The position numbers and the translations under genes were made by a program. This document shows positions 5,003 through 37,950 of a DNA stretch of 55,739 nucleotides, in pieces. Each line of letters opens with the position of its first letter. Position 1 is the first letter of the stretch. The notes beneath the pieces are model-generated. The model searched no databases. It had not been told where the DNA came from and saw nothing but the letters and a program-made list of their open reading frames with translations. This DNA is from Bacteroidia bacterium. GTDB lineage: Bacteria; Bacteroidota; Bacteroidia; Chitinophagales; JAUHXS01. Where the stretch lies: the NCBI GenBank assembly GCA_030426955.1, contig JAUHXS010000015.1:1-55739 (forward strand). The letters run 5' to 3'.

Positions 5003-5023
5003 TATGCCATTGAAAAAAGAAAA

Positions 5024-5138: not shown

Positions 5139-5223
5139 TTGTCCCGAATTTTATCATATTTCGGGACAAAATTTATAAGACAAAACAATTAATTGTCCCA
5201 TTTATTTGCTATTTTTGGGACAA
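5139..5223 (+). promoter_or_regulatory. Double inverted-repeat operator and promoter of the AbiE-like operon
   Basis: Two related inverted repeats stand side by side. The first is TTGTCCCGAA-N11-TTCGGGACAA (5139-5169). The second is TTGTCCCA-N15-TGGGACAA (5193-5223), and its last base is the A of the ATG. A TAnnTTTG-type -7 box, TATTTTTG, lies at 5210-5217 inside the second repeat. AbiEi-type antitoxins are known to bind inverted repeats and repress their own operon. The arrangement suggests that binding blocks promoter and start codon together, on a leaderless or nearly leaderless transcript. Confidence 0.75.
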
Positions 5224-5804
5224 TGTTAGACTTGGATGTAATAGAAAACAGGGTTGATAAAGGTGAAATATTCTTTATCTCAGACTTTACGGAACTTGGC
5301 AACTACGAGGCTGTACGCAAGTCTTTACAGAGGTTGACCAAAGACGGGAAAGTTGAACGCATTGCTAAAGGAATATACTTCTTGCCTAAAAAACATGAAA
5401 AATTAGGCACAATCTACCCTCATGCAGAACAAATTGCAAAAGCTATTGCAAAACGTGATAAAGCCAGAATAATAGCTACAGGATCAACAGCATTGAATCT
5501 ATTAGGCTTATCAACACAAATCCCTATGAAGGTGGTTTTCTTAACGGATGGCTCTGCTAGAAATATAAAAGTGGGTAAACAAACTATTCAGTTTAAAAAG
5601 ACAAACACCAAAAATCTCAGTATTGAACATCGATTGACCAATCTTATAATTCAAGCATTTAAAGCTATTGGAGAAAAAAATATTACAGAAGAACAGATTG
5701 GTAAAATACGCATGATAATTGACCAAAGCGATGAACAAGAGTTGATTTATCAAAATTTGAAAACAGCGCCAGTTTGGATGCAAAAAATAGTAGTAGGCAA
5801 ATGA
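5223..5804 (+). CDS. AbiEi-like antitoxin (DUF6088-type)
   Basis: A 193-aa protein. ATG 5223 was chosen because a TTG 30 bp upstream lies inside the operator. The N-terminal 60 residues form a winged-helix segment (ISDFTELGNYEAVRKSLQRL, then VERIAKGIYFLPK), typical of AbiEi/DUF6088 transcriptional antitoxins. The C-terminal part (IIATGSTALNLLGLS) resembles the AbiEi C-terminal domain. By family precedent it represses its own operon and counteracts the AbiEii nucleotidyltransferase in a type IV toxin-antitoxin system. It overlaps the toxin gene by ATGA (5801-5804). The double operator directly upstream supports autoregulation. Confidence 0.82.
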   Translation: MLDLDVIENRVDKGEIFFISDFTELGNYEAVRKSLQRLTKDGKVERIAKGIYFLPKKHEKLGTIYPHAEQIAKAIAKRDKARIIATGSTALNLLGLSTQIPMKVVFLTDGSARNIKVGKQTIQFKKTNTKNLSIEHRLTNLIIQAFKAIGEKNITEEQIGKIRMIIDQSDEQELIYQNLKTAPVWMQKIVVGK

Positions 5805-6784: not shown

Positions 6785-6788
6785 CAAT

Positions 6789-8378: not shown

Positions 8379-8379
8379 T

Positions 8380-9612: not shown

Positions 9613-9615
9613 GGT

Positions 9616-10254
9616 ATGAAGCAGACCAAAGACATACTAAAACAGCTTGAAAGTCAATACACCAATATTGAGTATTACTATGTAATCGTTGAAAAAATCG
9701 AAGAAAACGTAGATTCAAATCCTGATATTGCTATCGAAAGTTGTAAGTCCTTATTAGAAGGGATTTCAAAATTCATTTGGAAGCAAATCGATACTTCTTA
9801 TGACGCTGTAAAAGTGGACAAAATGGATTTTCATCCCTTGGTTAGAGGAGCAGTAAACGAGCTATCTAATTTTAATGAAGACTTGGAAGTAGATTTTGTC
9901 AATAAGATTAACAAACTCATTGTTTCTATTGGAGAAGTAAGAAACCGAAGAGGCGATATCTCACATGGCAGATTATCGCCAAAAGAGTATTTCAGCGATA
10001 CCCACTTTTCCAATTTGGTAATGAACATTACTGACAATATGCTTTCTTATATACTTCATTGCTTTTCAAAAGTGAGTATTGTAAAGGAACTAGAATATGC
10101 GGACAATCCAGATTTTAACGAAAAACTGGACTTGGAGAATCCTTTTGGATTTTTGAGTTATAGCAAGGCATTATTCGAACAAGATCAAGTAGCCTATGAA
10201 CAGGAACTACAAGATTATTTAGATACAAAAGAAACAGAAGAAATAGATGTCTAG
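9616..10254 (+). CDS. Abi_C-domain (abortive-infection family) protein inside the hsd locus
   Basis: A 212-aa cytoplasmic protein. IAIESCKSLLEGISKFIW and VRNRRGDISHGR are hallmarks of the abortive-infection C-terminal (Abi_C/HEPN-like) family, in which a conserved RN...GDxxHG element may be part of a HEPN RNase-type site. It overlaps hsdR by 8 bases, so its translation is coupled to the restriction subunit. Similar genes occur in other type I loci, so it could be a back-up growth-arrest effector or an accessory to the complex. Which of these applies is inference. Confidence 0.72.
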   Translation: MKQTKDILKQLESQYTNIEYYYVIVEKIEENVDSNPDIAIESCKSLLEGISKFIWKQIDTSYDAVKVDKMDFHPLVRGAVNELSNFNEDLEVDFVNKINKLIVSIGEVRNRRGDISHGRLSPKEYFSDTHFSNLVMNITDNMLSYILHCFSKVSIVKELEYADNPDFNEKLDLENPFGFLSYSKALFEQDQVAYEQELQDYLDTKETEEIDV

Positions 10255-13255: not shown

Positions 13256-13316
13256 CAACAATGTGTATAGTGCATAGCACCCTGCGGGATGCTACGACAC
13301 CATACACGGAACGTTG
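13256..13316. repeat. Type 1 attC-like folded element D (clearest copy)
   Basis: A 61-bp element. CAAC (13256-13259)/GTTG (13313-13316), GTGTAT (13263-13268)/ATACAC (13302-13307), then a tight inner hairpin TAGCA-CCC-TGC-GGG-A-TGCTA (about 13274-13293). Unequal unpaired spacers lie between end box and inner stem, as in integron attC sites. No gene lies in 13154-13739; the rest of that stretch is the 43-bp repeat, element F and the parD promoter. Confidence 0.65.
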
Positions 13317-13354
13317 AAACACATTCGGCAAAGCCGACCTTAATCCTTTCGTCC
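13312..13354. repeat. 43-bp repeat, copy 1, with hairpin partner
   Basis: Identical to 14416-14458. Its first 15 bases (CGTTGAAACACATTC) are nearly the perfect complement of GAATGTGTTTCAATG (13382-13396), so 13312-13396 can form a long hairpin between element D and element F. Both copies directly continue the GTTG end of a type 1 element. Confidence 0.85.
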
Positions 13355-13391
13355 TCCTTCGTCGGACTTTCAGTCTTAAGGGAATGTGTTT

Positions 13392-13668
13392 CAATGTCGA
13401 GCTAAACCAAATTGCTTCTCCGCTACTCTCCTCTTGCTCGCCTTTGCCGGACTTCGAGTCAAAACGTGTTCCAACAAAACGTTAAACGCAATTTGATTCC
13501 ACATCTCGAACTTTTCAAATTACATAAGTTGAGTTGTTACGTTCATTCCATGAACTACAAACTGACAATGCTCAATGTCCAGCGGAAAGTATTTACATTT
13601 CGCATTGTCTATCAACTTTTGTAATTTTCGTTCTCAATGCGGAACTACGTTTAGCTCGACATTGTGTG
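13392..13668. repeat. Element F, copy 2: long inverted-repeat element containing the 131-bp repeat
   Basis: CAATGTCGAGCTAAA (13392-13406) is the exact reverse complement of TTTAGCTCGACATTG (13650-13664), enclosing about 240 bp. A second internal pair is CAAATTGC (13408-13415)/GCAATTTG (about 13488-13495). Bases 13538-13668 repeat 1-131 exactly. Read on the - strand the element starts ACACAATGTCGAG and ends GACATTGAAAC, resembling a type 1 element in reverse orientation. Confidence 0.75.
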
Positions 13669-13690
13669 TAATTTGAGCGAAAATCCAAAA

Positions 13691-13739: not shown

Positions 13740-13988
13740 ATGAAAAATACATCAATATCGCTCGGAAATTATTTTGACCAGTTCATACAAACCCAAGTTT
13801 CTGCTGGACGATACAAAAATGTAAGCGAAGTAATCAGAGCTGGACTTCGACTTTTGGAAAATGAGGAAAGTAAAGTAATTGCGTTAAGAAATGCTATTCA
13901 AGAAGGAGTTGATAGCGGAATTGCTCACGATTTTGACCCCAAAAAAAATCTTGAGGAATTAAAAGCTAAACGCAGAAAGAATGGCTAA
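13740..13988 (+). CDS. parD: ParD-family antitoxin
   Basis: An 82-aa protein. The N-terminal 45 residues (NTSISLGNYFDQFI, NVSEVIRAGLRLL) are a ribbon-helix-helix DNA-binding domain. The acidic/basic C-terminal tail (FDPKKNLEELKAKRR) is the usual ParE-wrapping segment. It neutralises ParE and represses the operon through the palindrome at 13701-13715. It overlaps parE by 8 bases, so the two are translationally coupled. Confidence 0.93.
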   Translation: MKNTSISLGNYFDQFIQTQVSAGRYKNVSEVIRAGLRLLENEESKVIALRNAIQEGVDSGIAHDFDPKKNLEELKAKRRKNG

Positions 13989-14280
13989 ATATGAATTGAC
14001 CAACAAAGCCGTAGCAGACTTGAACGGAATTTGGGAATATACGCTCGAAAATTGGTCGGAAAATCAAGCCGATAGATATTACGATATGCTTCTGGATATT
14101 TGCCAAGACATTGCTAATAATCCAGAATTAGGAAAAAACTATGACGGAATTAAACCTGAACTTTTCGGACTGAAAGCAAACCGACACGTAATATTCTATC
14201 GAAAATCAGAAGTAAATCCAATCGAAATAACGAGAATTTTGCACGAACGAATGGATTTGAAAAAAAGAATAACCGAATAA
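13981..14280 (+). CDS. parE: ParE-family toxin (RelE/ParE superfamily)
   Basis: A 99-aa protein of the usual ParE length. ELTNKAVADLNGIWEYT at the N-terminus, NPELGKNYDGI in the centre and KANRHVIFYR...ILHERMD near the C-terminus are typical ParE features. ParE toxins usually poison DNA gyrase; some relatives cut mRNA instead, and which applies here cannot be told. The gene is intact and followed directly by type 1 element E. Toxin-antitoxin cassettes are a known stabilising content of chromosomal integrons, which fits the attC-like flanks. Confidence 0.92.
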   Translation: MAKYELTNKAVADLNGIWEYTLENWSENQADRYYDMLLDICQDIANNPELGKNYDGIKPELFGLKANRHVIFYRKSEVNPIEITRILHERMDLKKRITE

Positions 14281-22076: not shown

Positions 22077-22110
22077 TTGTCCAGCCGTGCAATAAAATTA
22101 TATATCTTTG
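22077..22110 (+). promoter_or_regulatory. Promoter-like segment of the first giant adhesin
   Basis: TTG (22077-22079) and TATCTTTG (22103-22110) with a 23-bp spacer. The 34-bp segment aligns without gaps to 28263-28296 upstream of the paralogue (about three quarters identical). The TTG that would lengthen the reading frame to 22108 lies inside the -7 box, which is why ATG 22138 was chosen. Confidence 0.6.
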
Positions 22111-22137: not shown

Positions 22138-25100
22138 ATGAATATAATACCACTTAGTACTAAAGATATTGCGTTTAAATCGTTAATAGTAGGAATAATT
22201 TGCTACTCTTTACTAATTCCAAGAAGCTTATTTGCTGATGGCACCAAACAGTTAAGACCCACACAGGCTGACTTTGGTTGGACTTTCCTCAATATGAATA
22301 ATGTCGTTGAAAATCACTCTGAGGGTCCTTTATACGGTCGCCCAGAAAAAGATAGGTGGAACTTTAAGATTTGTGATATCAACGAACGAGCTTACATTGG
22401 TCTTAGAATGGGATTAGGAGCTTTGTCTGGACTTGAAGGATATATCACAGAATATAGAATAGTAAGAAAGAGCGACAATTCTGTTGTTTGGGGACCTTTT
22501 ACTTGTCCACATGCAAAAATACTAGGATCATATGATAGCGTAGGGCTAATACACAACTATAATCAAGCTGTTGCAGGTCCAGCACAAATTGTGGGGGCCA
22601 CTGGGTATAATGCTATTGAATTTACCCCTCCAGATACCGGAGTCTATTATATTGAGTTTGATTATGACCCAGATGACTCTACATATCGTAAAGCAACTAG
22701 AGATATCGACCTTTTCGATATTTCTGTAGGCAACCCATCTGCTGGAGCTTTATACCCAGGGAGATTTTGGAGTCAAACATTTATTATCACAGTTGGGAAC
22801 TTTCTAAGAGAATGTAATGCTAGTATGTACGTTTATTCCAATGACCACCTAACCACTTTTATTGACTTTAATGGCATGAAACCCAATGTTTTTACTATGT
22901 CTGCTAACTCATATGGGCTTCACAATACAGGAAACCCCTCTTTTGATAGAGCTTCCGAATATGGACTACATCAAGCACCTGAGTACAAATTATTTTTGAG
23001 TGAACCCGACGAAGGATGCTTTCCCACAGGGAGTTTAGGCACACTAACAACAGGAACCTATATTGAAGGCTGTAGCAATGGCGACTTTTGTATCAATATT
23101 AATGTAGATAAGGCTGGACAAGTTGATGTATTACTAGACCTAAATGGTATCCCAGGATATCAGGCTGGCACGATAGATCGTCTTTTAAATGCTACCGTTG
23201 TTGTCGGCACAAACTGTATTCCATGGAATGGTCTTGATGGTCTGGGCAATCCAGTTCAATCTGCTATTACCGTAAAAGTTGAAGTCACCTACCTAAACGG
23301 TATTACGCATATTCCTATTTACGACATTGAAGAACATCCTAACGGCTTTATCGTTCAACCAGTAAGACCAGCAGCACCAAAAGTAAATCTTTACTGGGAT
23401 GACTCTACAAAGTTCAACTTAGTCCCACCAATATGTGATGAAAGTGGTAATACTATCTTAGGAAACACAAATTTCTCTGGTTGTAATGACACTCTAAATG
23501 GTTGCCATCCTTGGTTATGTAATGATGGCGTAAATAACAATAGAGGGTATGGCGACAAAAGAACAATGAACACTTGGTGGTTTGTACCTACAGAAAATAA
23601 CTTTGATTCTTTTACCTATATAGTAGACTTCATCTCTATTGACTGGAATCCTTCTAACCCCAATACCTATGATGGTGATTCCGTTTACTGTTGGGGGCCA
23701 GGTGACTCTCTAATTTATCTAGATGTAGCAGTTAATAAAGCAGCTGGAGGAAAGTTTCATGTAATGCCTGGTGTTTTTAGCCCAAGCGATTCGACCACAG
23801 GAGGTACTTTCACAGGAACCTATAAACCTACTCCTGCTGAGATAGCCTCTGGAGAAGTAGTTATCAAGATGACTACTTATGGCAACGGTGATTGTCCAGC
23901 TTTAACTGACTCTATCACAATAACTTTTCTTACAGAAAATATTATAGATGCAGGAGAGAATGACTCCTTGTGTCAGGAAAATTTTCCGTTTCAACTCAAT
24001 GGAAATATTATTAATGGATCAGTTACTACACTATGGAAAGGTGGCGACGGAAGTTTCAACCCAAACAGAAATACTTTAAATGCAACATACACCCCTAGTG
24101 CATCAGAGATTAACTCAGGTTATGTTAAACTGTTTTTACAAGTATCTGCATCAGGAACATTTTCGTGTGGAGGTCTACCTGATAGCGTTACACTAGTTAT
24201 ATTCCCTGACCCTGATTTTGAAATTGTATCAGAAGCCAACGAATTGTGCATCGGAGATTCTGTATTCGCATTTGTAAAGGATGCAGATTCAGGCTCATCT
24301 TATCTATGGAAGCCAGGTATTTATACAAGTGATAGCACTAGTGACAGTACCTACCTCTACCCTATTCATGACCAAACATTCACAGTAACTGTAACCTCTC
24401 CAATGGGATGTACACATAGTGAGTCAATTAACATTGGCGTCAACTCTCTACCAGTGATGGATGCGGGAGATAATGATACCATCTGCGTAGGCGATGTAGC
24501 TCAACTCAATGGCTCTGATGATGGACAAGATGATAATACGTATACTTGGACACCCAATACTCACCTTTCAAATCCTACTATCATCAATCCAATGGCTACT
24601 CCGCCTGTAACTACTGTCTATACCCTCACTGTTACTTCTGGAAAAGGGTGTCAAGCATCTGACTCGGCTACGGTTGTCGTCAATCCTCCACCGATTGTTG
24701 ATGCTGGGTCTGATGATACGATTTGTAGAGGGGATTCTGCTCAACTGAATGCCTCGGGAGCAGTATCTTATACTTGGTTCCCTCCTACTAATCTGACCAA
24801 TCCTAATATCCCTAACCCTAAAGCATTCCCTACGGTCACCACTTCTTATATTGTAACGGGTACGGATGCTAATGGTTGCTTGAATACGGATACAGTCATT
24901 GTCAGAGTGAATAACCTTCCTACTATTTCGGCTTCGGGGGATAAGGAAATTTGCCTTGGGGATACGGCTCAGCTTATGGCTTCGGGTGGTACTTCTTATG
25001 TGTGGTCGCCTGCTGTCTCACTTACGAATCCGAATATTCCTAATCCTAGGGCTTTTCCTACGTCGTCTACGGTCTATACTGTTGTTGGCACAGATGGTAA

Positions 25101-28014
25101 TGGGTGTTCTAACACTGCTCAACATAAGGTCGTCGTTAATGAGTTACCGAATGTTGAGGCGGGAGATGATGTGGAGATTTGTTTTGGGGATAAAACGCAA
25201 TTGAAAGCTTCGGGTGCTAGATTCTATGCTTGGACGCCTACCGCGACGCTGGATAATCCTAATATTGCTGACCCTATTGCTAATCCTGCCACTACTACTG
25301 AGTATTTTGTGACGGGTACGGATAATAAGGGGTGTATGAACATAGATTCGGTTATGGTTACGGTGAATCCTTTACCTATTGCGGATGCGGGTGAGGATAC
25401 GGCCATTACTTGTCTGGCTACTGTTGATCTTTTGGCTACGGCTTCTGCGGGTACGCCTGGGTATAACTTCCAATGGCAAGGGGGACCAGCTACGCCTAAC
25501 TGGAATGCTAGAGGGGCTGGCTCTTATACGGTCACAGTGACGGATAGTAAAGGGTGTAAGGATAATGATCAGGTCGTGGTTTCGCTTACTTCTTCTACGC
25601 TTGCTTTGTCGCTTGATAATGATACGGCTATTTGTCTGGGGGAGAGTACTTCTTTTACTGCGGTTGCTTCGGGCGGGGTGGATCCGATTGTTTATACTTG
25701 GGATAATGGTCTTCCGGCTATTGGTGGTCCGCATACGGTTGCACCTGCGGTAACGACTACTTATAATGTTACGGTAACGGATGATGCGGGTTGTCAGCTT
25801 ACTGATGCTATTACGGTTACTATTGATCCATTGCCTAATGCGGATGCGGGTGAGGATGTAGAAATTTGTATTGGGGATAATGTGCAGTTAGGGGCTTCTG
25901 GCGGAGGCACTTATGTATGGTCTCCTACGGATTCTTTGAGTGATCCTAATGTGGTCAACCCTATTGCTAATCCTACTAGCACTACTAAGTATTTTGTAAC
26001 GGTTACTTCTGCTCAAGGGTGTCAGAGTATCGACTCTGTACTTGTTACGGTAAATCCGTTGCCTGTTGTCGATATTAATATCTCTGCTGATTCTTCGATT
26101 TGTTTGAATGATGTGATTCAGCTTGTGGCTTCGGGCGCTAGTTCGTATGTATGGTCGCCTGCTACGGGATTGAGCAATCCTAATGTTCCTAATCCTACGG
26201 CTTCGCCTACTAATTCTACTTTGTACTTTGTCTCGGGTACGGATGGAAATGGGTGTGTGAACATGGATTCGGTTGTTATTACTGTTGATCCGTTGCCGAA
26301 TGTAATTGCTAGAACGGATGATGATATTTGTATCGGGGATTCTATTCGTCTGGATGCGACTGGAGCGCAGTCTTATGTGTGGTCGCCTACGGCTTCTTTA
26401 ACGAATCCGAATATTAAGGATCCGTTTGCTTTCCCTACAACGACTACAACTTATACGGTTACTGGCACTGATTCTAATGGGTGTGTGAATACGGATCAAA
26501 CAATCATTACGGTGAATGATTTGCCTATTGTGGAGGCAGGGAATGATGTGACTATTTGCTTGGAGGAAAATACGCAGCTTAATGCTTCGGGAGCGCTTTC
26601 GTTTGTTTGGTCGCCAGATTCGGCTATGAGTGATCCGAATGTGGCTAATCCTTTGGTTAATCCTACGGCTTCGATCACTTATTTTGTGGTGGGGACGGAT
26701 ATCAACTCTTGTCAAAATATGGATAGTGTAATGGTAACGGTGAATCCTTTGCCTTTTCCTAATGCGGGTTCTAATGATACGATTTGTATTGGGGATACGG
26801 CTCTGTTGAATGCTACTGGTGGGGGGAATTATAATTGGTCGCCTGCGGGGTCTTTATCGGATAACTCGATTGCTAATCCAATGGCTTTTCCTGCTTCGAC
26901 TACGGATTATGTGTTAACGGTCACTAATGGATTTGGATGCTCGGATGTGGATACGGTTAATATCTTGGTCCATAGCTTACCCTTAATTACTACTTATGGG
27001 GATTCTGGTATGTATTGTCCGAATATTCCTTTGCAAATGGGTGCTTCGGGGGGAGAGGAATATAGCTGGTCGCCTACTATGGGGTTAGATTCTGCTTCCT
27101 TCTCTGATCCAATGGTGGTTATTGATACGACAACGACTTTTGTTGTTATGGTTACGGATTCTAATGGGTGTTCGGATATGGCTAGTTTAACTATTGTTAT
27201 TAGCGATATTGAGGCTAACTTCTCTTATAATGATATTTGTATTGGACAGACCATTCTGTTTGAGGATCTTTCTGTGGGGAGTATTAATGATTGGTTATGG
27301 GATTTAGGGAATAATACTTTTACTACGAATCAAAATCCTACTTATGATATCTTGCTGGAGGGGGATTATCCTATTACCTTGATGGTAACGGATTCTTTGG
27401 GTTGTATTGATTCTATTACGGATACGGTGGTTGTGACGGATGATATTATGGTCAGCACTGTTCCTAAGGATACTGCGGTGATACTAGGGGAAAGTGTACA
27501 AATCCATGTAAATAGTCAGGGGGATGTTTGTTCTTGGTCGCCTGAGATTTACTTGGATGATCCTAATGTGAGTAGTCCTATTGCTACGCCTTTGGAGGAC
27601 TTGACCTATACTGTCGTGTGTATTGACTCGAATGGCTGTCGTGGTGAGGATACGGTACGGATCATTGTGAAAGATGATTGTGAGTTCTTTATCCCGGATG
27701 CTTTTACGCCTAATGGGGATCAAGAAAATGATGTGGCTTACCTAGAGGGATTCTGCATTGATGAGATTGAATGGAAAGTATTCAATAGATGGGGGGAACT
27801 CGTCTTTGAAACTACGGATAGAAAAATTGGTTGGGACGGCTCTTTCCAAGGAAAACCTGCTGAGGTAGGATCTTATGCTACTTGGGCCAAGATTACTTTC
27901 CTTGAAAAACAAAATAATGTCGCTTTTAAAACTGTTGGTGGGGAAATTATTCCGGATGACGACCCCAACGACAATAAAATCTTCTGGAAAGGGTCCATCG
28001 CTATTATTAGATAA
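22138..28014 (+). CDS. Giant surface protein with Ig/PKD-like repeats and CHU (type B) sorting domain, copy 1
   Basis: A 1,958-aa protein from ATG 22138. A signal peptide (IVGIICYSLLIPRSLFA) is followed by about 750 residues of a beta-rich N-terminal region. From about residue 770 come 14 tandem repeats of 75-90 aa with the pattern DAG-D-ICxGD-QL-ASG-YxWSP...NP...TTxYxVTGTDxNGC...VTVN; repeat 13 is PKD-like. The last about 95 residues (FIPDAFTPNGDQEND, VFNRWGELVFET, GWDG, ending SIAIIR) are the gliding-motility-associated C-terminal domain for T9SS export. It is probably a cell-surface adhesin or filament. From 24439 the gene is nearly identical to the next one. Codon use in the repeats (GGG, TCG, ACG) differs from the AT-rich N-terminal part. 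Confidence 0.88.
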   Translation: MNIIPLSTKDIAFKSLIVGIICYSLLIPRSLFADGTKQLRPTQADFGWTFLNMNNVVENHSEGPLYGRPEKDRWNFKICDINERAYIGLRMGLGALSGLEGYITEYRIVRKSDNSVVWGPFTCPHAKILGSYDSVGLIHNYNQAVAGPAQIVGATGYNAIEFTPPDTGVYYIEFDYDPDDSTYRKATRDIDLFDISVGNPSAGALYPGRFWSQTFIITVGNFLRECNASMYVYSNDHLTTFIDFNGMKPNVFTMSANSYGLHNTGNPSFDRASEYGLHQAPEYKLFLSEPDEGCFPTGSLGTLTTGTYIEGCSNGDFCININVDKAGQVDVLLDLNGIPGYQAGTIDRLLNATVVVGTNCIPWNGLDGLGNPVQSAITVKVEVTYLNGITHIPIYDIEEHPNGFIVQPVRPAAPKVNLYWDDSTKFNLVPPICDESGNTILGNTNFSGCNDTLNGCHPWLCNDGVNNNRGYGDKRTMNTWWFVPTENNFDSFTYIVDFISIDWNPSNPNTYDGDSVYCWGPGDSLIYLDVAVNKAAGGKFHVMPGVFSPSDSTTGGTFTGTYKPTPAEIASGEVVIKMTTYGNGDCPALTDSITITFLTENIIDAGENDSLCQENFPFQLNGNIINGSVTTLWKGGDGSFNPNRNTLNATYTPSASEINSGYVKLFLQVSASGTFSCGGLPDSVTLVIFPDPDFEIVSEANELCIGDSVFAFVKDADSGSSYLWKPGIYTSDSTSDSTYLYPIHDQTFTVTVTSPMGCTHSESINIGVNSLPVMDAGDNDTICVGDVAQLNGSDDGQDDNTYTWTPNTHLSNPTIINPMATPPVTTVYTLTVTSGKGCQASDSATVVVNPPPIVDAGSDDTICRGDSAQLNASGAVSYTWFPPTNLTNPNIPNPKAFPTVTTSYIVTGTDANGCLNTDTVIVRVNNLPTISASGDKEICLGDTAQLMASGGTSYVWSPAVSLTNPNIPNPRAFPTSSTVYTVVGTDGNGCSNTAQHKVVVNELPNVEAGDDVEICFGDKTQLKASGARFYAWTPTATLDNPNIADPIANPATTTEYFVTGTDNKGCMNIDSVMVTVNPLPIADAGEDTAITCLATVDLLATASAGTPGYNFQWQGGPATPNWNARGAGSYTVTVTDSKGCKDNDQVVVSLTSSTLALSLDNDTAICLGESTSFTAVASGGVDPIVYTWDNGLPAIGGPHTVAPAVTTTYNVTVTDDAGCQLTDAITVTIDPLPNADAGEDVEICIGDNVQLGASGGGTYVWSPTDSLSDPNVVNPIANPTSTTKYFVTVTSAQGCQSIDSVLVTVNPLPVVDINISADSSICLNDVIQLVASGASSYVWSPATGLSNPNVPNPTASPTNSTLYFVSGTDGNGCVNMDSVVITVDPLPNVIARTDDDICIGDSIRLDATGAQSYVWSPTASLTNPNIKDPFAFPTTTTTYTVTGTDSNGCVNTDQTIITVNDLPIVEAGNDVTICLEENTQLNASGALSFVWSPDSAMSDPNVANPLVNPTASITYFVVGTDINSCQNMDSVMVTVNPLPFPNAGSNDTICIGDTALLNATGGGNYNWSPAGSLSDNSIANPMAFPASTTDYVLTVTNGFGCSDVDTVNILVHSLPLITTYGDSGMYCPNIPLQMGASGGEEYSWSPTMGLDSASFSDPMVVIDTTTTFVVMVTDSNGCSDMASLTIVISDIEANFSYNDICIGQTILFEDLSVGSINDWLWDLGNNTFTTNQNPTYDILLEGDYPITLMVTDSLGCIDSITDTVVVTDDIMVSTVPKDTAVILGESVQIHVNSQGDVCSWSPEIYLDDPNVSSPIATPLEDLTYTVVCIDSNGCRGEDTVRIIVKDDCEFFIPDAFTPNGDQENDVAYLEGFCIDEIEWKVFNRWGELVFETTDRKIGWDGSFQGKPAEVGSYATWAKITFLEKQNNVAFKTVGGEIIPDDDPNDNKIFWKGSIAIIR
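24439..28009 (+). repeat. 3.57-kb near-identical block, copy 1
   Basis: Aligns without gaps (offset 6,153) to 30592-34162. I see only a handful of substitutions, nearly all in the first about 180 bp plus one close to the stop; spot checks of the middle show identity. It encodes all 14 repeats and the sorting domain. Confidence 0.93.
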
Positions 28015-28033
28015 TAGCTACTCTTGAACTTAG

Positions 28034-28071
28034 TAAGTTGCGCAAAAAAAATTCCACTTTTGCGCAACTTA
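28034..28071 (+). terminator. Strong hairpin after giant protein copy 1
   Basis: A perfect 14-bp inverted repeat, TAAGTTGCGCAAAA / TTTTGCGCAACTTA, with a 10-base loop, 20 bp after the stop codon. It separates the transcripts of the two giant genes. The second copy has no such hairpin and runs straight into the PorP/SprF gene. Confidence 0.7.
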
Positions 28072-28262
28072 TTTCAATCAATATCGTACAAAGGGGCGTA
28101 AATTAGCTTTATTGTTAGTAAAAAGACTTGGTGTCCTTTTTTGCTAGCAATAAGCGAAATATAAAAAATTGATTATCTAATAAATAAGATAAAAAGAAAA
28201 GATATTAGAAAGCTTATACTAAAGGAGTAATTAAACACTTTCTAAGATTAGAAAACATTAAT

Positions 28263-28296
28263 TTGTCCAACTGTATAATAATATGACATATCTTTG
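28263..28296 (+). promoter_or_regulatory. Promoter-like segment of the second giant adhesin
   Basis: TTTG (28262-28265) and TATCTTTG (28289-28296), with the same 23-bp spacing and related sequence as 22077-22110. An in-frame TTG at 28294 is part of the -7 box, so ATG 28315 is the start. Bases 28072-28262 hold nothing else recognisable. Confidence 0.6.
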
Positions 28297-28314
28297 CCTA
28301 AACAAAAAAGAACC

Positions 28315-31300
28315 ATGCTACTAAATTCTTTCCCCAACAAAAAGAGTTATTTTAAAGTACTTTGCTTCTCTATACTAACTTGTCTTAGCTTAAACATAAA
28401 AGCAGATGGCACAAAACAACTCAAGCCGACAACAAATGCAAATCAGGTAGGCAACATCATGCTATATAAAGGCGGTGGAAATCAAAACTACCTCCCTTTT
28501 GCCATATATGGGGGTCCTGAACATAGCAGGCTTCATATAACAATTTGTGATACCTCTGAGAAAGTCTACTTTGGAATGAAGTTTAGAAATAACTCAGCCA
28601 ATTGGGCAACTACCACAAGTTATAGAATAAAAGATCCTAGTGGAACTGTTGTTTGGGGACCATTTCCATCTGTGCCTACTTCAGGAAACCCCGGATATAT
28701 TACTTCCTATGCAAGAGCCGTTGCTGGCCCAGCACAAATCGTTGGAGCAGGAACAGGTTACAACGCACTTGTTTTCAATCCAAGCACTACAGGAGATTAT
28801 TATATTGAGTTTAACTATACCATCACTGGAAATGGAGAATCTCAACGAAGAGACTTTGAGTTCTTCGATATTACGGTAGCAGATAAAGATAATAATGCTA
28901 AAGAAGGAAGAGTTTGGAGTAAAAATTGGTGTGTATCAACCAACTCTTTTACGAATACTTTTGGGGGAAATTTTTATGTTTACTCTAATGACAATCTTAC
29001 TACAAAGCTAAACTTCAATGGTATTAAGCCATATGTATTTAATATTGCTGCTAACTCTACTGGTCTTTTCAATACTGGCAATCCCACATTTGATAGAGCA
29101 TCAGCTTGGGTAAATAGTACAAATCCTGAATACAGATTATTCTTAACCGCTCCTGATACTGGCTGCTTTCCTGTTGGACAATTGGGCAGTCTTACTGCTG
29201 CCACAACCATCAACGGTTGTAATAGTGGTGATTTTTGCATCAACATTACAGTCGATAAAGCAGGGCAAGTTGATGTATTACTAGACCTAAATGGAACAGA
29301 TGGGTATCAAGCTGGTACGGAAGATGTTTTAATCAACTATAATGTCAATATTGGCATAAACTGCGTACCATGGGATGGGTTAGATGGCTTGGGCAATCCA
29401 GTTCAATCTGCTATTACCGTAAAAGTTGAAGTTACCTACCTAAACGGTATTACACATATCCCACTATATGACGTAGAAGAGCATCCTGATGGTTTTATTG
29501 TTCAGCCATTTAGACCAGCAGCACCAAAAGTAAATCTTTACTGGGACGATTCCACAAAACTAAATGCAGGAGGAGCATTCGACTGCGGTAGTTCGCCAGA
29601 TGTTTTAGGTACAATTAATCTGACAGGATGCAATGACACCATTACTGGCTGCCATCCATGGCCATGTAATGATGGGCTTAATAACAATGCAGGCTATGGT
29701 GAAGCAAAAACGATCAATACATGGTGGTTTGTGCCAACAAATAATAATTTTGACTCTTTTACCTATATAGTAGACTTCATCTCTATTGACTGGAACCCTT
29801 CTAACCCCAATACCTATGATGGCGACTCTACCTATTGCTGGAGTGTTGATGACTCTCTAATTTATCTAGATGTAGTAGTCAACAAAGCAGCTGGAGGGAG
29901 GTTTCATGTAATGCCTGGTGTTTTTAGCCCAAGCGACTCCACCACAGGAGGTACTTTCACAGGAACCTATAAGCCTACTCCTACTGAGATAGCCTCTGGA
30001 GAAGTAATTATCAAGATGACTACTTATGGCAATGGCGACTGCCCTCCATTTACAGATTCTATTACCATCACCTTTAATGATAAGCTAGTCATAAATGCAG
30101 GCTCAGATGACACACTATGTCAAGAAAGCTTTCCATTCCAACTCAATGGAAGCATAACCAATGGCACAGCTACTGCTAGTTGGCTCGGAGGAACAGGGAC
30201 CTTTTCCCCAGGAAGAAATGTGCTAAATCCAACTTATACTCCAAGTACAGCCGAAATCAACGCGGGCTTTGTTGAACTAGTTCTAGACGCAACTTCTCTA
30301 CCGAGCGGAATATGTAATGGAACTCCAGATACTGTCAGGTTAACTATCTATAAAACGCCAGGTTTTTTAGTTGGTTTTGAACCTCCTGTTTTAGAAATCT
30401 GTACAGGAGACTCTCTGAAAATATGGGCATATAATGCTCCTGCTGGATCTTCATTTTTATGGCAACCAGGTATTTACAACAGCGATAGCACAAATGACAC
30501 TACTTATTTCTTCCCTCCAGCTTCAATTACTATATCTTTAACAGTTACATCCCCTGAAGGTTGTGTTAGGTCAATTTCTGGACCACTAACAGTCAACTCT
30601 CTACCAGTGATGGATGCGGGAGATAATGATACCATTTGCGTAGGCGATGTAGCTCAACTCAATGGCTCTGATGATGGACAAGATGATAATACGTATACTT
30701 GGACACCCAATACTTACCTTTCAAATCCCACTATCATCAATCCAATGGCTACTCCGCCTGCAACTACTGTCTATACCCTCACTGTTACTTCTGGAAAAGG
30801 GTGTCAAGCATCTGACTCGGCTACGGTTGTCGTCAATCCTCCACCGATTGTTGATGCTGGGTCTGATGATACGATTTGTAGAGGGGATTCTGCTCAACTG
30901 AATGCCTCGGGAGCAGTATCTTATACTTGGTTCCCTCCTACTAATCTGACCAATCCTAATATCCCTAACCCTAAAGCATTCCCTACGGTCACCACTTCTT
31001 ATATTGTAACGGGTACGGATGCTAATGGTTGCTTGAATACGGATACAGTCATTGTCAGAGTGAATAACCTTCCTACTATTTCGGCTTCGGGGGATAAGGA
31101 AATTTGCCTTGGGGATACGGCTCAGCTTATGGCTTCGGGTGGTACTTCTTATGTGTGGTCGCCTGCTGTCTCACTTACGAATCCGAATATTCCTAATCCT
31201 AGGGCTTTTCCTACGTCGTCTACGGTCTATACTGTTGTTGGCACAGATGGTAATGGGTGTTCTAACACTGCTCAACATAAGGTCGTCGTTAATGAGTTAC

Positions 31301-34167
31301 CGAATGTTGAGGCGGGAGATGATGTGGAGATTTGTTTTGGGGATAAAACGCAATTGAAAGCTTCGGGTGCTAGATTCTATGCTTGGACGCCTACCGCGAC
31401 GCTGGATAATCCTAATATTGCTGACCCTATTGCTAATCCTGCCACTACTACTGAGTATTTTGTGACGGGTACGGATAATAAGGGGTGTATGAACATAGAT
31501 TCGGTTATGGTTACGGTGAATCCTTTACCTATTGCGGATGCGGGTGAGGATACGGCCATTACTTGTCTGGCTACTGTTGATCTTTTGGCTACGGCTTCTG
31601 CGGGTACGCCTGGGTATAACTTCCAATGGCAAGGGGGACCAGCTACGCCTAACTGGAATGCTAGAGGGGCTGGCTCTTATACGGTCACAGTGACGGATAG
31701 TAAAGGGTGTAAGGATAATGATCAGGTCGTGGTTTCGCTTACTTCTTCTACGCTTGCTTTGTCGCTTGATAATGATACGGCTATTTGTCTGGGGGAGAGT
31801 ACTTCTTTTACTGCGGTTGCTTCGGGCGGGGTGGATCCGATTGTTTATACTTGGGATAATGGTCTTCCGGCTATTGGTGGTCCGCATACGGTTGCACCTG
31901 CGGTAACGACTACTTATAATGTTACGGTAACGGATGATGCGGGTTGTCAGCTTACTGATGCTATTACGGTTACTATTGATCCATTGCCTAATGCGGATGC
32001 GGGTGAGGATGTAGAAATTTGTATTGGGGATAATGTGCAGTTAGGGGCTTCTGGCGGAGGCACTTATGTATGGTCTCCTACGGATTCTTTGAGTGATCCT
32101 AATGTGGTCAACCCTATTGCTAATCCTACTAGCACTACTAAGTATTTTGTAACGGTTACTTCTGCTCAAGGGTGTCAGAGTATCGACTCTGTACTTGTTA
32201 CGGTAAATCCGTTGCCTGTTGTCGATATTAATATCTCTGCTGATTCTTCGATTTGTTTGAATGATGTGATTCAGCTTGTGGCTTCGGGCGCTAGTTCGTA
32301 TGTATGGTCGCCTGCTACGGGATTGAGCAATCCTAATGTTCCTAATCCTACGGCTTCGCCTACTAATTCTACTTTGTACTTTGTCTCGGGTACGGATGGA
32401 AATGGGTGTGTGAACATGGATTCGGTTGTTATTACTGTTGATCCGTTGCCGAATGTAATTGCTAGAACGGATGATGATATTTGTATCGGGGATTCTATTC
32501 GTCTGGATGCGACTGGAGCGCAGTCTTATGTGTGGTCGCCTACGGCTTCTTTAACGAATCCGAATATTAAGGATCCGTTTGCTTTCCCTACAACGACTAC
32601 AACTTATACGGTTACTGGCACTGATTCTAATGGGTGTGTGAATACGGATCAAACAATCATTACGGTGAATGATTTGCCTATTGTGGAGGCAGGGAATGAT
32701 GTGACTATTTGCTTGGAGGAAAATACGCAGCTTAATGCTTCGGGAGCGCTTTCGTTTGTTTGGTCGCCAGATTCGGCTATGAGTGATCCGAATGTGGCTA
32801 ATCCTTTGGTTAATCCTACGGCTTCGATCACTTATTTTGTGGTGGGGACGGATATCAACTCTTGTCAAAATATGGATAGTGTAATGGTAACGGTGAATCC
32901 TTTGCCTTTTCCTAATGCGGGTTCTAATGATACGATTTGTATTGGGGATACGGCTCTGTTGAATGCTACTGGTGGGGGGAATTATAATTGGTCGCCTGCG
33001 GGGTCTTTATCGGATAACTCGATTGCTAATCCAATGGCTTTTCCTGCTTCGACTACGGATTATGTGTTAACGGTCACTAATGGATTTGGATGCTCGGATG
33101 TGGATACGGTTAATATCTTGGTCCATAGCTTACCCTTAATTACTACTTATGGGGATTCTGGTATGTATTGTCCGAATATTCCTTTGCAAATGGGTGCTTC
33201 GGGGGGAGAGGAATATAGCTGGTCGCCTACTATGGGGTTAGATTCTGCTTCCTTCTCTGATCCAATGGTGGTTATTGATACGACAACGACTTTTGTTGTT
33301 ATGGTTACGGATTCTAATGGGTGTTCGGATATGGCTAGTTTAACTATTGTTATTAGCGATATTGAGGCTAACTTCTCTTATAATGATATTTGTATTGGAC
33401 AGACCATTCTGTTTGAGGATCTTTCTGTGGGGAGTATTAATGATTGGTTATGGGATTTAGGGAATAATACTTTTACTACGAATCAAAATCCTACTTATGA
33501 TATCTTGCTGGAGGGGGATTATCCTATTACCTTGATGGTAACGGATTCTTTGGGTTGTATTGATTCTATTACGGATACGGTGGTTGTGACGGATGATATT
33601 ATGGTCAGCACTGTTCCTAAGGATACTGCGGTGATACTAGGGGAAAGTGTACAAATCCATGTAAATAGTCAGGGGGATGTTTGTTCTTGGTCGCCTGAGA
33701 TTTACTTGGATGATCCTAATGTGAGTAGTCCTATTGCTACGCCTTTGGAGGACTTGACCTATACTGTCGTGTGTATTGACTCGAATGGCTGTCGTGGTGA
33801 GGATACGGTACGGATCATTGTGAAAGATGATTGTGAGTTCTTTATCCCGGATGCTTTTACGCCTAATGGGGATCAAGAAAATGATGTGGCTTACCTAGAG
33901 GGATTCTGCATTGATGAGATTGAATGGAAAGTATTCAATAGATGGGGGGAACTCGTCTTTGAAACTACGGATAGAAAAATTGGTTGGGACGGCTCTTTCC
34001 AAGGAAAACCTGCTGAGGTAGGATCTTATGCTACTTGGGCCAAGATTACTTTCCTTGAAAAACAAAATAATGTCGCTTTTAAAACTGTTGGTGGGGAAAT
34101 TATTCCGGATGACGACCCCAACGACAATAAAATCTTCTGGAAAGGGTCTATCGCTATTATTAAGTAA
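28315..34167 (+). CDS. Giant surface protein with Ig/PKD-like repeats and CHU (type B) sorting domain, copy 2
   Basis: A 1,950-aa protein from ATG 28315 with signal peptide (VLCFSILTCLSLNIKA). Its N-terminal about 760 residues are clearly homologous to copy 1 but diverged, with islands of near-identity (for example around GNPVQSAITVKVEVTYLNG and the FDSFTYIVDF segment). The remainder is almost residue-for-residue the same, including the sorting domain; the last residue is K instead of R. The N-terminal region is therefore the variable part displayed on a shared stalk. Only 26 bp separate it from the PorP/SprF gene, so this copy is probably the one linked to that secretion partner. Confidence 0.88.
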   Translation: MLLNSFPNKKSYFKVLCFSILTCLSLNIKADGTKQLKPTTNANQVGNIMLYKGGGNQNYLPFAIYGGPEHSRLHITICDTSEKVYFGMKFRNNSANWATTTSYRIKDPSGTVVWGPFPSVPTSGNPGYITSYARAVAGPAQIVGAGTGYNALVFNPSTTGDYYIEFNYTITGNGESQRRDFEFFDITVADKDNNAKEGRVWSKNWCVSTNSFTNTFGGNFYVYSNDNLTTKLNFNGIKPYVFNIAANSTGLFNTGNPTFDRASAWVNSTNPEYRLFLTAPDTGCFPVGQLGSLTAATTINGCNSGDFCINITVDKAGQVDVLLDLNGTDGYQAGTEDVLINYNVNIGINCVPWDGLDGLGNPVQSAITVKVEVTYLNGITHIPLYDVEEHPDGFIVQPFRPAAPKVNLYWDDSTKLNAGGAFDCGSSPDVLGTINLTGCNDTITGCHPWPCNDGLNNNAGYGEAKTINTWWFVPTNNNFDSFTYIVDFISIDWNPSNPNTYDGDSTYCWSVDDSLIYLDVVVNKAAGGRFHVMPGVFSPSDSTTGGTFTGTYKPTPTEIASGEVIIKMTTYGNGDCPPFTDSITITFNDKLVINAGSDDTLCQESFPFQLNGSITNGTATASWLGGTGTFSPGRNVLNPTYTPSTAEINAGFVELVLDATSLPSGICNGTPDTVRLTIYKTPGFLVGFEPPVLEICTGDSLKIWAYNAPAGSSFLWQPGIYNSDSTNDTTYFFPPASITISLTVTSPEGCVRSISGPLTVNSLPVMDAGDNDTICVGDVAQLNGSDDGQDDNTYTWTPNTYLSNPTIINPMATPPATTVYTLTVTSGKGCQASDSATVVVNPPPIVDAGSDDTICRGDSAQLNASGAVSYTWFPPTNLTNPNIPNPKAFPTVTTSYIVTGTDANGCLNTDTVIVRVNNLPTISASGDKEICLGDTAQLMASGGTSYVWSPAVSLTNPNIPNPRAFPTSSTVYTVVGTDGNGCSNTAQHKVVVNELPNVEAGDDVEICFGDKTQLKASGARFYAWTPTATLDNPNIADPIANPATTTEYFVTGTDNKGCMNIDSVMVTVNPLPIADAGEDTAITCLATVDLLATASAGTPGYNFQWQGGPATPNWNARGAGSYTVTVTDSKGCKDNDQVVVSLTSSTLALSLDNDTAICLGESTSFTAVASGGVDPIVYTWDNGLPAIGGPHTVAPAVTTTYNVTVTDDAGCQLTDAITVTIDPLPNADAGEDVEICIGDNVQLGASGGGTYVWSPTDSLSDPNVVNPIANPTSTTKYFVTVTSAQGCQSIDSVLVTVNPLPVVDINISADSSICLNDVIQLVASGASSYVWSPATGLSNPNVPNPTASPTNSTLYFVSGTDGNGCVNMDSVVITVDPLPNVIARTDDDICIGDSIRLDATGAQSYVWSPTASLTNPNIKDPFAFPTTTTTYTVTGTDSNGCVNTDQTIITVNDLPIVEAGNDVTICLEENTQLNASGALSFVWSPDSAMSDPNVANPLVNPTASITYFVVGTDINSCQNMDSVMVTVNPLPFPNAGSNDTICIGDTALLNATGGGNYNWSPAGSLSDNSIANPMAFPASTTDYVLTVTNGFGCSDVDTVNILVHSLPLITTYGDSGMYCPNIPLQMGASGGEEYSWSPTMGLDSASFSDPMVVIDTTTTFVVMVTDSNGCSDMASLTIVISDIEANFSYNDICIGQTILFEDLSVGSINDWLWDLGNNTFTTNQNPTYDILLEGDYPITLMVTDSLGCIDSITDTVVVTDDIMVSTVPKDTAVILGESVQIHVNSQGDVCSWSPEIYLDDPNVSSPIATPLEDLTYTVVCIDSNGCRGEDTVRIIVKDDCEFFIPDAFTPNGDQENDVAYLEGFCIDEIEWKVFNRWGELVFETTDRKIGWDGSFQGKPAEVGSYATWAKITFLEKQNNVAFKTVGGEIIPDDDPNDNKIFWKGSIAIIK
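30592..34162 (+). repeat. 3.57-kb near-identical block, copy 2
   Basis: Partner of 24439-28009. Such low divergence over 3.5 kb, beside strongly diverged 5' halves, indicates recent duplication or gene conversion of the repeat/stalk region. Confidence 0.93.
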
Positions 34168-34193: not shown

Positions 34194-35207
34194 ATGAATG
34201 GTATTATGAGATACTTTTATAAAATAATGCTCATCTTACTTGTTTGTAAGATTTCATTGGGTCAAGATATCCGATTTTCACAATTTTATGCAGCTCCTCT
34301 CTCATTGAATCCTGCATTAACGGGTTTATTCAATGGAGATCATAGATTTGTTGGAAATTATAGGTCACAGTGGAAAAATGCTAATGCAGATTTTATTACT
34401 ACTGCTTTTTCTTATGACTCTGATTTATTAGGCATAAACCCTACGAATCATCTCATTGGAACTGGAATTATGGTTTTTAATGACAAAGCAGGCTTTAGTA
34501 GTGGCATTAATACTTTTGATATTGCACTAACAGGCTCTTATCACTTACCTGTTGGAGAAAATGCTACTATCGCAATGGGTCTACAAACTAACTTTGTACA
34601 AAAATCCACCTTTGGTGATTTTAAATTCCCTAACAGTTGGGTTGATGGTCTTGGCTATGAGCAAGATGCCAATGGCGACGCCATTACAACAGGAACTATC
34701 AATAGCTTGGATGTTAATACAGGTGCTTTCTTTTATATGTTTCCAGGTGGTGGAGAGTCCAGTATATTCCTTGGACTATCTTCTTTCCATTTAGTAGCTC
34801 ATAAAGAAAGCTTCATCCCCTCTATTGGCAATAGCATCGGTAGAAGAATAGTTGGACATGGTGGAACTAGGATTACGACTAAAAAAGAAATTAACTTTGT
34901 ACCGAATTTCCTTTACATGAGACAAGGAAGAGCTGAAGAGCTAAACCTAGGATTTTCAGTTGAATTTGAATTTCCTAGCATAAAAAGTGCTGTTGCTGTG
35001 GGGTTTTGGACAAGAGCGAGAGATGCGGTTATCCCTAATATTGCATTTGATTTTAATAATATTCACCTAGGGCTGAGTTATGACTTTAACTTATCTGAGC
35101 TACAAACTAGTTCTGATAAGAGAGGAGGTTTTGAATTATCTCTTCAATATATACTCAATATGGGTATCAATAATGAGGTTAAAGGAGAGCCTTGTCCAAG
35201 GTTTTAA
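34194..35207 (+). CDS. PorP/SprF-family T9SS outer-membrane protein
   Basis: A 337-aa protein with a signal peptide (MRYFYKIMLILLVCKISLGQ); ATG 34206 is an alternative start. It begins the mature part with QDIRFSQFYAAPLSLNPALTG, the hallmark of the PorP/SprF family, and continues as an outer-membrane barrel. In Flavobacterium johnsoniae SprF is needed to export the type B-CTD adhesin SprB, and SprF-like genes usually sit next to their cargo. Its place directly after the second giant CHU protein suggests it serves that protein, and probably the near-identical first one. Confidence 0.9.
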   Translation: MNGIMRYFYKIMLILLVCKISLGQDIRFSQFYAAPLSLNPALTGLFNGDHRFVGNYRSQWKNANADFITTAFSYDSDLLGINPTNHLIGTGIMVFNDKAGFSSGINTFDIALTGSYHLPVGENATIAMGLQTNFVQKSTFGDFKFPNSWVDGLGYEQDANGDAITTGTINSLDVNTGAFFYMFPGGGESSIFLGLSSFHLVAHKESFIPSIGNSIGRRIVGHGGTRITTKKEINFVPNFLYMRQGRAEELNLGFSVEFEFPSIKSAVAVGFWTRARDAVIPNIAFDFNNIHLGLSYDFNLSELQTSSDKRGGFELSLQYILNMGINNEVKGEPCPRF

Positions 35208-35253: not shown

Positions 35254-37950
35254 ATGATCAAAGTCAAAAGTGTCCTTAGAATCATTCTCATTGGATTAAT
35301 CGTTGGACTAGGAGCTAAAAGTACTCAAGGGCAGAATGTCAGGAAGCCTGAACCAATACCTCTTGTTGATCAATACATCAAAATTGCAGATGCACTATTT
35401 GAGAAAGGCAACTACCATGGTGGTGCGTTTTACTACGAAAAAGCTATTGAACAAGATTCTATTACGCCTAACTATTATGCCATTTTCAAGGCTGGAGAAT
35501 GCTATAAAATCAAACGACTTTATCATTCAGCAGAAAAGTGGTATGGTGTTGTTGCCAGAAAAAACTTCGAGCATTTTTCATTGATAGAAGGAAACGACTC
35601 TTTAGCTAGCATAGAAAGGGCTTATAAAAGAATTTATCAGGAGAAGTCAGCAAAAAACGCTGCCTTAGCAATTGAAAAGCCCTCTAAATATAATTACTAT
35701 GACTCATTAGCCAAACATTTTGACTTAAAGGCAATTGCTAGTGATGCCAAAATAGCGCGCTATGATTCAACTGTAAAGGCAAATAAAAAGCTTTATATGT
35801 ATGATTACCCAATGGTGATGTTCAAATATGCACTAATGCAAAAAGCAAATGGAAAATATTATGATGCAAAGCAGTCTTTTATTGCATTCTCCAAAATGTA
35901 CAAAGGGAATAATATTCATATCAAATCAAGGGTACGACAAGAGATTCATGGAATGGAGTTTGCAACTGCTTGGATTGAGTTTAACTACCCTTATGAGATA
36001 GAGATTCTAAGCCGATCTATTAATGATACCTTTTCAGACTTTAGCCCAATTAAGCTTGATCAAAACACATTAGCTTTCACAAGCACTTATCGTATGGATG
36101 AAAAGAAAAAGATAAAAGCTACAAAAGCAAATGCTAGAAAGCAAAATATTACTTATTCCCCTTTCTTAAATAGAATATTTTTATCTACCAAAACAGATTC
36201 GGGATGGAGTGAAAGAGAAATGTTGGACTTACCAGATAACTCTGAAATCACACATATTGGTAACGCAAATCCTACAAAAGGAGGAGATAGGTTATACTTT
36301 ACCATTTGCCAAAATTTGAGATTGGCTTCTGAATTTAAGGAACAATGCCATATCTATTATACAAACAAAACTGACGATGGGTGGAGCAAAGCTGAACTTG
36401 TTGGCTTTGGTGTAAATAAAGATAGTACATCATCCAAGAATCCCTTTGTATATGAAGATATTGGAGACAAAGGGGACCGTGAAATCATGATATTTACTTC
36501 TGATAGAAAAGGCGGTGTTGGTGGATATGATTTATGGTATTCTGTTTTAAATGACGAGGCTGGAAGTATTGAAGAAAAGGGGGAAGGAAAAGCAGTCAAT
36601 CTAGGCAGGGTTGTAAATACCTATTATGATGAGGTAACACCTTATTATGATTATGAATCTGATGTGTTATATTTTAGCTCGAATGGGCATTTAGGCTTAG
36701 GTGAATTTGATATTTTCAAGTCTAATGGCACAAGGCAAAAAAATAACTGGGGACGCCCTGAAAATCTTGGCTACCCTATAAATAGTGGTGCAGACGATTA
36801 CTATTATTATCAAAATAAGGGCACCGACGAGATATTTTTTGCATCCAATAGATCTGGAGGTATAGTACTTACAGAGTCTACCTGTTGTGATGACATTTAT
36901 AACATACCAAGTACTAGCCTAGTATGGTCTAGATATTTTGCTAAAGGCAAAGTCATTGAAAAACTTAATGGTATTGAGGCTCCGTTAAAAGGATTAGCAT
37001 TATCTCTTTACTACATAGATACGGCAACTAATACAAGGATTTTAATCAAAAGAGATACGCTCAGTTCACTTGCTAGTGCTCCAGACTATTTATTTGAAGT
37101 AAACCCTAATGAGTCATACATGATAGAGGCAAGTAAGCCAGGTTTCTTAAACAATAAGGTTGAATTTAATACCTACAATTTAAAGCAGTCTGATACTGTC
37201 GAGGTTGATGATATTGAATTAACCAGAATCAAGAAGGGAGATAAGTTTGTTTTAGAATACATCTACTATGATTTAAATAAAGCTACTTTAAGACAAGAGT
37301 CTTACTTGGCCTTGGACAATCTTGTTTTCTTCATGTATGAAAATCCTGGATTAAAAATCGAATTAAGTGCTCATACCGATAGTAGAGGTTCAAAAATCTA
37401 CAATCAAGAATTGTCTCAAAAAAGGGCTGAGAGCGTAGTTGATTACCTCATATTGAATGGAATTGAATCAGAGCGACTTGTCTCAAAGGGCTATGGAGAA
37501 ACTAAGTTGGTTAATAAATGTAGCGATGGTGTCGAGTGTACAGAGGGAGAGCATCAAGCTAACAGAAGAACTGAAGTAGAGGTGCTTGACTATGATACGA
37601 CTGTTAATGAACGATTATTTTCTAGAAAGGTGGAAGGAGAAACGAAAACAGAAACAATTGACCTCAAGGACAAAGAGCATAAAAACAAAGTATTATACTT
37701 AGTACAAGTGGGTGTATATGACACAGACAACCCTATTAAGGTTGCAAAATTACTAGACTTGGGCGAAGTCACGACCGATCCTGTAGGAAATGGATTATAC
37801 AGATTCTATTTAGGACCATATGAAAGCAAAGAAGAGGCAGAAGAGATTAATGAACAGGTTAAGACGAGAATGGATGATAGTAGAATTGTTCCTACTTACA
37901 ATGGACAACGTATTACAATGCAACGTGCATTCAGAATAGAGAACAACTAA
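35254..37950 (+). CDS. PorE-like OmpA-family protein with TPR, PD40, CRD and SPOR-like tail
   Basis: An 898-aa protein with signal peptide. In order it has TPR-like helices (ADALFEKGNYHGGAFYYEKA), PD40/WD40-like propeller strands (MIFTSDRKGGVGGYDLWYS; LYFSSNGHLGLGEFDIF), a carboxypeptidase-regulatory-like domain (from GKVIEKLNGIEAPLKG), and an OmpA_C peptidoglycan-binding domain (YDLNKATL; SAHTDSRGS; RAESVVDYL; NRRTEVEVL). Last is a SPOR-like segment (YLVQVGVYDTDNPIKVAKLL...YRFYLGPYESKEEAEE), absent from the other two PorE-like proteins here. PorE is the T9SS component that ties the outer-membrane ring to peptidoglycan. It follows the PorP/SprF gene by 46 bp. Confidence 0.85.
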   Translation: MIKVKSVLRIILIGLIVGLGAKSTQGQNVRKPEPIPLVDQYIKIADALFEKGNYHGGAFYYEKAIEQDSITPNYYAIFKAGECYKIKRLYHSAEKWYGVVARKNFEHFSLIEGNDSLASIERAYKRIYQEKSAKNAALAIEKPSKYNYYDSLAKHFDLKAIASDAKIARYDSTVKANKKLYMYDYPMVMFKYALMQKANGKYYDAKQSFIAFSKMYKGNNIHIKSRVRQEIHGMEFATAWIEFNYPYEIEILSRSINDTFSDFSPIKLDQNTLAFTSTYRMDEKKKIKATKANARKQNITYSPFLNRIFLSTKTDSGWSEREMLDLPDNSEITHIGNANPTKGGDRLYFTICQNLRLASEFKEQCHIYYTNKTDDGWSKAELVGFGVNKDSTSSKNPFVYEDIGDKGDREIMIFTSDRKGGVGGYDLWYSVLNDEAGSIEEKGEGKAVNLGRVVNTYYDEVTPYYDYESDVLYFSSNGHLGLGEFDIFKSNGTRQKNNWGRPENLGYPINSGADDYYYYQNKGTDEIFFASNRSGGIVLTESTCCDDIYNIPSTSLVWSRYFAKGKVIEKLNGIEAPLKGLALSLYYIDTATNTRILIKRDTLSSLASAPDYLFEVNPNESYMIEASKPGFLNNKVEFNTYNLKQSDTVEVDDIELTRIKKGDKFVLEYIYYDLNKATLRQESYLALDNLVFFMYENPGLKIELSAHTDSRGSKIYNQELSQKRAESVVDYLILNGIESERLVSKGYGETKLVNKCSDGVECTEGEHQANRRTEVEVLDYDTTVNERLFSRKVEGETKTETIDLKDKEHKNKVLYLVQVGVYDTDNPIKVAKLLDLGEVTTDPVGNGLYRFYLGPYESKEEAEEINEQVKTRMDDSRIVPTYNGQRITMQRAFRIENN

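Follow-up and report, generated by a model that had tools for sequence, protein, structure and literature searches.

Probable gene conversion of the stalk and sorting domain between two tandem type B T9SS surface-protein genes of a Bacteroidia bacterium

Two adjacent giant genes on the analysed contig of a Bacteroidia bacterium (referred to as the window, 55,739 bp) are near-identical over a 3' block of 3,571 bp and widely different in their 5' halves, and this pattern probably arose when the tandem paralogues underwent homologous recombination with each other (gene conversion), which homogenised the stalk and the sorting domain. Gene A (22138..28014, + strand) encodes 1,958 aa from its ATG and its paralogue, gene B (28315..34167, + strand), encodes 1,950 aa from its ATG, as determined from the open reading frames and their translations; both match TIGR04131, PF13585, PF19081, and PF18911. 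The two products share one layout, in which a signal-peptide-like start is followed by the mature sequence ADGTKQL, an N-terminal module of ~460 residues, and a second diverged stretch; then come ~11 Ig-like modules, one PKD domain, and, at the C-terminus, the sorting domain of type B. The last of these was located by profile match with TIGR04131 at 27691..27915 (+) in A and at 33844..34068 (+) in B, and scored above the curated cut-offs in both genes (TIGR04131, 44 bits with a cut-off of 35; PF13585, 45 with a cut-off of 27). The products of A and B are predicted to be T9SS type B substrates, which would be exported and anchored by PorP/SprF. The start codons are the ATGs at 22138 and 28315, and the TTG 'starts' listed for the two genes fall inside a promoter-like TATCTTTG motif. 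Intergenic alignment revealed that a homologous promoter-like element (TTGTCCA...TATCTTTG) is present separately 5' of each gene, at 22077..22110 (+) for A and at 28263..28296 (+) for B; TAnnTTTG is the -7 promoter element of Bacteroidota.

The shared block corresponds to the stalk and sorting domain and was placed at 24439..28009 (+) in A and at 30592..34162 (+) in B. In a base-by-base comparison the two copies of 3,571 bp were aligned without gaps at a constant offset of 6,153, and only five mismatches were found (24483, 24562, 24576, 24608, and 27996 in copy A). The first-pass annotation had given these coordinates correctly to the base, and its remark that substitutions fell almost all within the first 180 bp agrees with their placement, four of the five being in the first 170 bp and the other 14 bp before the end. 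Identity is perfect over 3,387 bp (24609-27995 in A, 30762-34148 in B). The 5' edge of the block is residue V778, the first of Ig-like module 1 (VNSLPV), and the 3' edge is at the stop codon, five bases short of its last base. At sites where both proteins have the same amino acid, identical codons are used in 1,146 of 1,149 cases (99.7%) within the block versus 249 of 437 (57%) upstream of it. A bounded tract that is alike at silent sites, runs from a module edge to the stop codon, and is flanked by the diverged sequence of old paralogues is the signature of gene conversion. Chance was excluded as the source of the identity. Protein-level purifying selection was ruled out as its cause because synonymous sites are identical too, and a simple segmental duplication was ruled out because the block stops at the stop codon without intergenic DNA. 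The intergenic DNA is not part of the block, and the sequence 3' of the stop codon of B is unlike the A-B intergenic region. No further copy of the block was found in the genome, in which the only matches beyond the two copies are ~100 bp long with 72-76% identity.

The 5' halves are homologous yet differ widely, as had been proposed, with 60% identity at the amino acid level and 64% at the nucleotide level. Overall dN was ~0.35 and dS ~1.40 (dN/dS ~0.25), and most windows were saturated at synonymous sites. The N-terminal modules of A (22234..23631, +; mature start ADGTKQL) and B (28402..29778, +) were compared in an alignment and tree of a 25-sequence family, in which the two are sisters with a support of 100/99, and the duplication is thus old and occurred within the lineage. 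An older, partly decayed homogenised tract was detected in A at 23632..23911 (+), and its counterpart in B was located at 29779..30058 (+) by A/B alignment. In 40-codon windows of this tract same-codon use is 78-90%, whereas the 5' half averages 57% (permutation p = 0.00035), and its dS is 0.24-0.68; with this second tract, two or more exchanges that took place at different times are indicated.

The most probable course of events is that a type B T9SS surface-protein gene was duplicated in tandem long ago, which gave rise to A and B, and that a later homologous recombination replaced the stalk and sorting domain in one copy by those of the other, in the simplest form as one recent gene-conversion tract of ~3.6 kb. 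The first Ig-like module, at which this tract starts, is the point from which the two genes are again homologous at the DNA level, and the stop codon, at which it finishes, is where homology stops; the 5' halves are presumably too diverged for frequent conversion, with at least one older short tract still visible. One genome cannot tell in which direction the transfer went, nor whether it was conversion or crossover. A recent duplication of the whole gene, after which the 5' half of one copy was replaced by DNA of another strain, is decidedly improbable. Identical 3' blocks next to different 5' halves would also be expected from such a replacement, and the N-terminal branch of B is much shorter than that of A (0.22 vs 0.65, or about threefold), but two events would be required, the 5' halves are alike in composition (GC3 of 0.28 and 0.29) besides being sisters in the tree, and a segmental duplication would have stopped in intergenic DNA rather than at the stop codon.

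Part of the identity could stem from the assembly. The genome is represented by 23 contigs without a 16S rRNA gene, the same 123-135-bp terminal sequence is present on at least seven contig ends (C2, C5 at both ends, C8, C11, C13, and C22), and the window contig begins inside a dispersed ~130-bp repeat; from the shared ends and the start within a repeat, the assembly looks like a short-read de Bruijn MAG with a k of ~127. The copies might then be similar rather than identical, the assembler having merged the interior while differences at the edges survived within one k-mer of unique sequence. This account, considered unlikely though by no means negligible, draws on the absence of 16S, on the contig termini and contig start just described, and on the position of all five mismatches, none of which is more than 170 bp from the nearer edge of the block, as interior merging predicts. 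An arrangement of the type unique-R-unique-R-unique has a single path, so that a short-read assembler can resolve the order but may merge isolated interior differences. In a simple simulation, however, the tolerable hidden divergence was ~1-1.5%, and at a true divergence of 1.5% the core would have come out as perfectly identical throughout with a likelihood of ~2% or less, which leaves the contrast with the 5' halves in place; since the flanks differ on both sides, it is also unlikely that the second copy is spurious as a whole. Perfect identity could mask ~1% divergence, and similarity may be lower, but cannot be higher, than the figure of 3,387 identical bp suggests. The blocks have been homogenised under every plausible scenario, and an assembly artefact cannot produce the whole pattern. 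Two repeats were recorded in the same context. A ~130-bp terminal repeat at window 55605-55739 is common to the ends of C2, C5, C8, C11, and C13 and represents an assembly break-point repeat, and a dispersed repeat of ~130-370 bp with 98-100% identity occurs at window 1-135 and 13301-13672 and on contig C19 at 118.0-118.4 and 121.0-121.4 kb.

To see whether the pattern recurs, type B genes arranged in tandem were compared in near-closed genomes from the order; a few tens of pairs were covered in all, with three candidate cases. In the four-gene array of genome G381 (3 contigs), the adjacent genes g3 and g4 share an ungapped 3' block of 1,372 bp with 88.5% identity that extends to the stop codon, and dS is mostly 0.2-0.6 within the block versus mostly >1 upstream. 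Trees were built from the arrays of G381 and the related genome G301. In the 5' tree, g3 groups with g2/h2 (100/100), and in the 3' tree it joins g4 and leaves the G301 orthologue h1 outside (100/98); the 3' ends of paralogues within a genome are thus closer to each other than to the orthologue in a relative. Judged by these trees and silent sites, the 3' block of the G381 array, whose genes are of a family unrelated to A and B, has undergone concerted evolution, and assembly collapse cannot be the cause because the g3 and g4 blocks differ in sequence. In the array of G353, the 5' trees follow orthologues and the 3' ends of the neighbours k2 and k3 cluster (98/98); most silent sites within this 3' block are saturated, which limits the support to the protein level and makes the case weaker. 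The view of the first-pass annotation that conversion keeps the stalk and sorting domain uniform was supported by the synonymous identity, the module-bounded edges, the older tract, and the tree conflict in G381, whereas its suggestion that conversion is ongoing was not supported by the one genome analysed.

Array size varies between related genomes (four genes in G381, three in G301), as would be expected if unequal crossover between tandem copies had lengthened an array from which all but two genes were subsequently lost. For A and B this course of events is improbable: no remnant of a third gene was found within the window, the DNA past the stop codon of B does not resemble the A-B intergenic region, and the 5' and 3' similarities in G381 differ in age, which would not be expected from one crossover. 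Gene conversion remains the preferred reading, and it is conceivable, as a tentative generalisation, that recurrent 3'-biased conversion is a general mode in tandem type B T9SS adhesin arrays, in which the stalk and sorting domain are kept matched to one PorP/SprF and the tips are free to diverge and to recombine onto a common stalk. Conversion as a general process affecting every type B gene of the window genome was rejected, since no block shared between neighbouring type B genes was found in ~13 other regions. A scan of named genomes for close relatives returned distant MAG loci only. In the first named tandem relative (L038) the C-terminal end is conserved, but with a dS >1, so that no recent conversion is shown there, and the tandem pair of G008 is interrupted by a contig end. 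Outside the window, greater similarity of the 3' ends than of the 5' halves was noted in tandem type B arrays at L162 4309-8915 and L146 9352-15470.

The N-terminal module belongs to a family with the mature start (A/S/G)EGTKEL that is present in 44 of the 396 genomes of the order. No Pfam model of its own was found for this family, and a weak FlgD_ig match was obtained in five of the 25 members. The module of B was modelled using AlphaFold2 (pLDDT 86.5; 90.7 for the first domain alone), which predicted two beta-sandwich domains. Fold searches indicated that residues 260-458 are Ig/FnIII-like (Z ~10) and that residues 1-258 form a beta sandwich with weak GOLD/CBM-like resemblance only (best Z 6.1), and a search of beta-helix families was uninformative as to function. 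A binding role of the module would be plausible. The suggestion that an exposed N-terminus is diversifying as adaptive variation was not supported: the module is that of a conserved family, and the dN of ~0.35 against a dS of ~1.4 appears to be of the purifying type with no sign of positive selection, at a dS near saturation. Likewise, the proposed likeness to antigenic-variation loci was not supported. Surface proteins with a variable 5' part and a constant 3' part are what a repertoire of N-terminal tips swapped over a constant stalk would produce, but silent cassettes or donor copies and extra copies of the block are absent from the genome, blocks are not shared in the ~13 other type B regions, the low 5' dN/dS argues against it, and the sole other paralogue of the N-terminal module is complete, lacks a stalk, and has its own shuttle gene; such a locus is extremely improbable.

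This third paralogue, on contig C19, lies in a gene trio of the kind seen in the window and encodes a product of 621 residues, and its lack of a stalk supports a modular reading of the A/B architecture. In the window, gene B is followed by a PorP/SprF-family shuttle gene (34194..35207, +; PF11751 and TIGR03519, 162 bits) and by a gene for a PorE-like protein with OmpA and SPOR domains (35254..37950, +; PF00691 and PF05036, with NF052230 as the best match, under its cut-off). The single PorP/SprF gene is probably common to A and B. In Flavobacterium johnsoniae, type B CTDs set the final location and are recognised by particular PorP/SprF shuttles (PMC12618676); binding of type B proteins to their own PorP-like protein has also been described (PMC9143113). 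Matched CTDs could let A and B both use the adjoining shuttle, and the expected outcome would be the same stalk bearing two unlike N-terminal tips, both exported and anchored by one neighbouring PorP/SprF. Shuttle matching would account better for the homogeneity of the CTD than for that of the whole stalk, for which plain recombination between similar repeats would be enough. In the window genome (3.4 Mb), ~125 type B sorting domains exceed the cut-off, versus 14 PorP/SprF genes, and many type B adhesins with few shuttles are found in Bacteroidota genomes. Were the export ends of neighbouring adhesins kept uniform by recombination, this would explain how new tips evolve without loss of export and, if true, would warn that short-read assemblies misreport precisely such adhesin genes. 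On contig C5 of the same genome (~328305-352000), a 7,930-codon open frame with a type B CTD at its end adjoins a PorP/SprF gene.

Among known systems, babA/babB and homA/homB of Helicobacter pylori are likewise surface-protein paralogues with alike 3' and diverged 5' segments, the 3' segments being concerted within a strain through intragenomic recombination (PMC2795765, PMC3960876). The H. pylori genes encode outer-membrane proteins at separate loci, are documented in many strains, and have known phase variation, whereas A and B are adjacent giant genes for T9SS substrates in one genome. The rgpA, kgp, and hagA genes of Porphyromonas gingivalis differ from A and B in that they do not form a tandem pair, their N-termini are catalytic, and their C-terminal signal is type A instead of type B. 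They resemble A and B as genes for T9SS substrates with 3'-side repeat/adhesin regions in common and unlike N-terminal parts; recombination has been inferred for them, and automated assembly failed on them (PMC5266723). A 10-kb inverted repeat of Flavobacterium psychrophilum also contains paralogous loci with a trio of adhesin, PorP/SprF protein, and outer-membrane protein (PMC5808330), but there the entire trio is repeated, in distant inverted copies that flank a chromosomal inversion. The tandem esaG immunity genes of the Firmicutes T7SS become mosaic as these neighbouring paralogues undergo homologous recombination (PMC9484751), and they differ in encoding small cytoplasmic immunity proteins of another secretion system. 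SprB-SprF of F. johnsoniae combines a giant adhesin with a type B CTD and a dedicated PorP/SprF partner (PMC9143113, PMC12618676), but only one adhesin gene is involved. No description of concerted evolution of tandem type B T9SS adhesins was found in the open-access literature, which does not prove its absence; A and B extend the concerted evolution of 3' ends, known from H. pylori adhesins and partly from P. gingivalis gingipains, to type B T9SS adhesins.

Elsewhere in the window, a defence-like region was observed at 3554-13153, with a YhcG/DUF1016 nuclease (3554-4603) and a type I restriction subunit R (10247-13153). The dispersed repeat at 13301-13672 adjoins a ParD/ParE-like toxin-antitoxin pair (13740-13988 and 13981-14280), which was recognised by eye.
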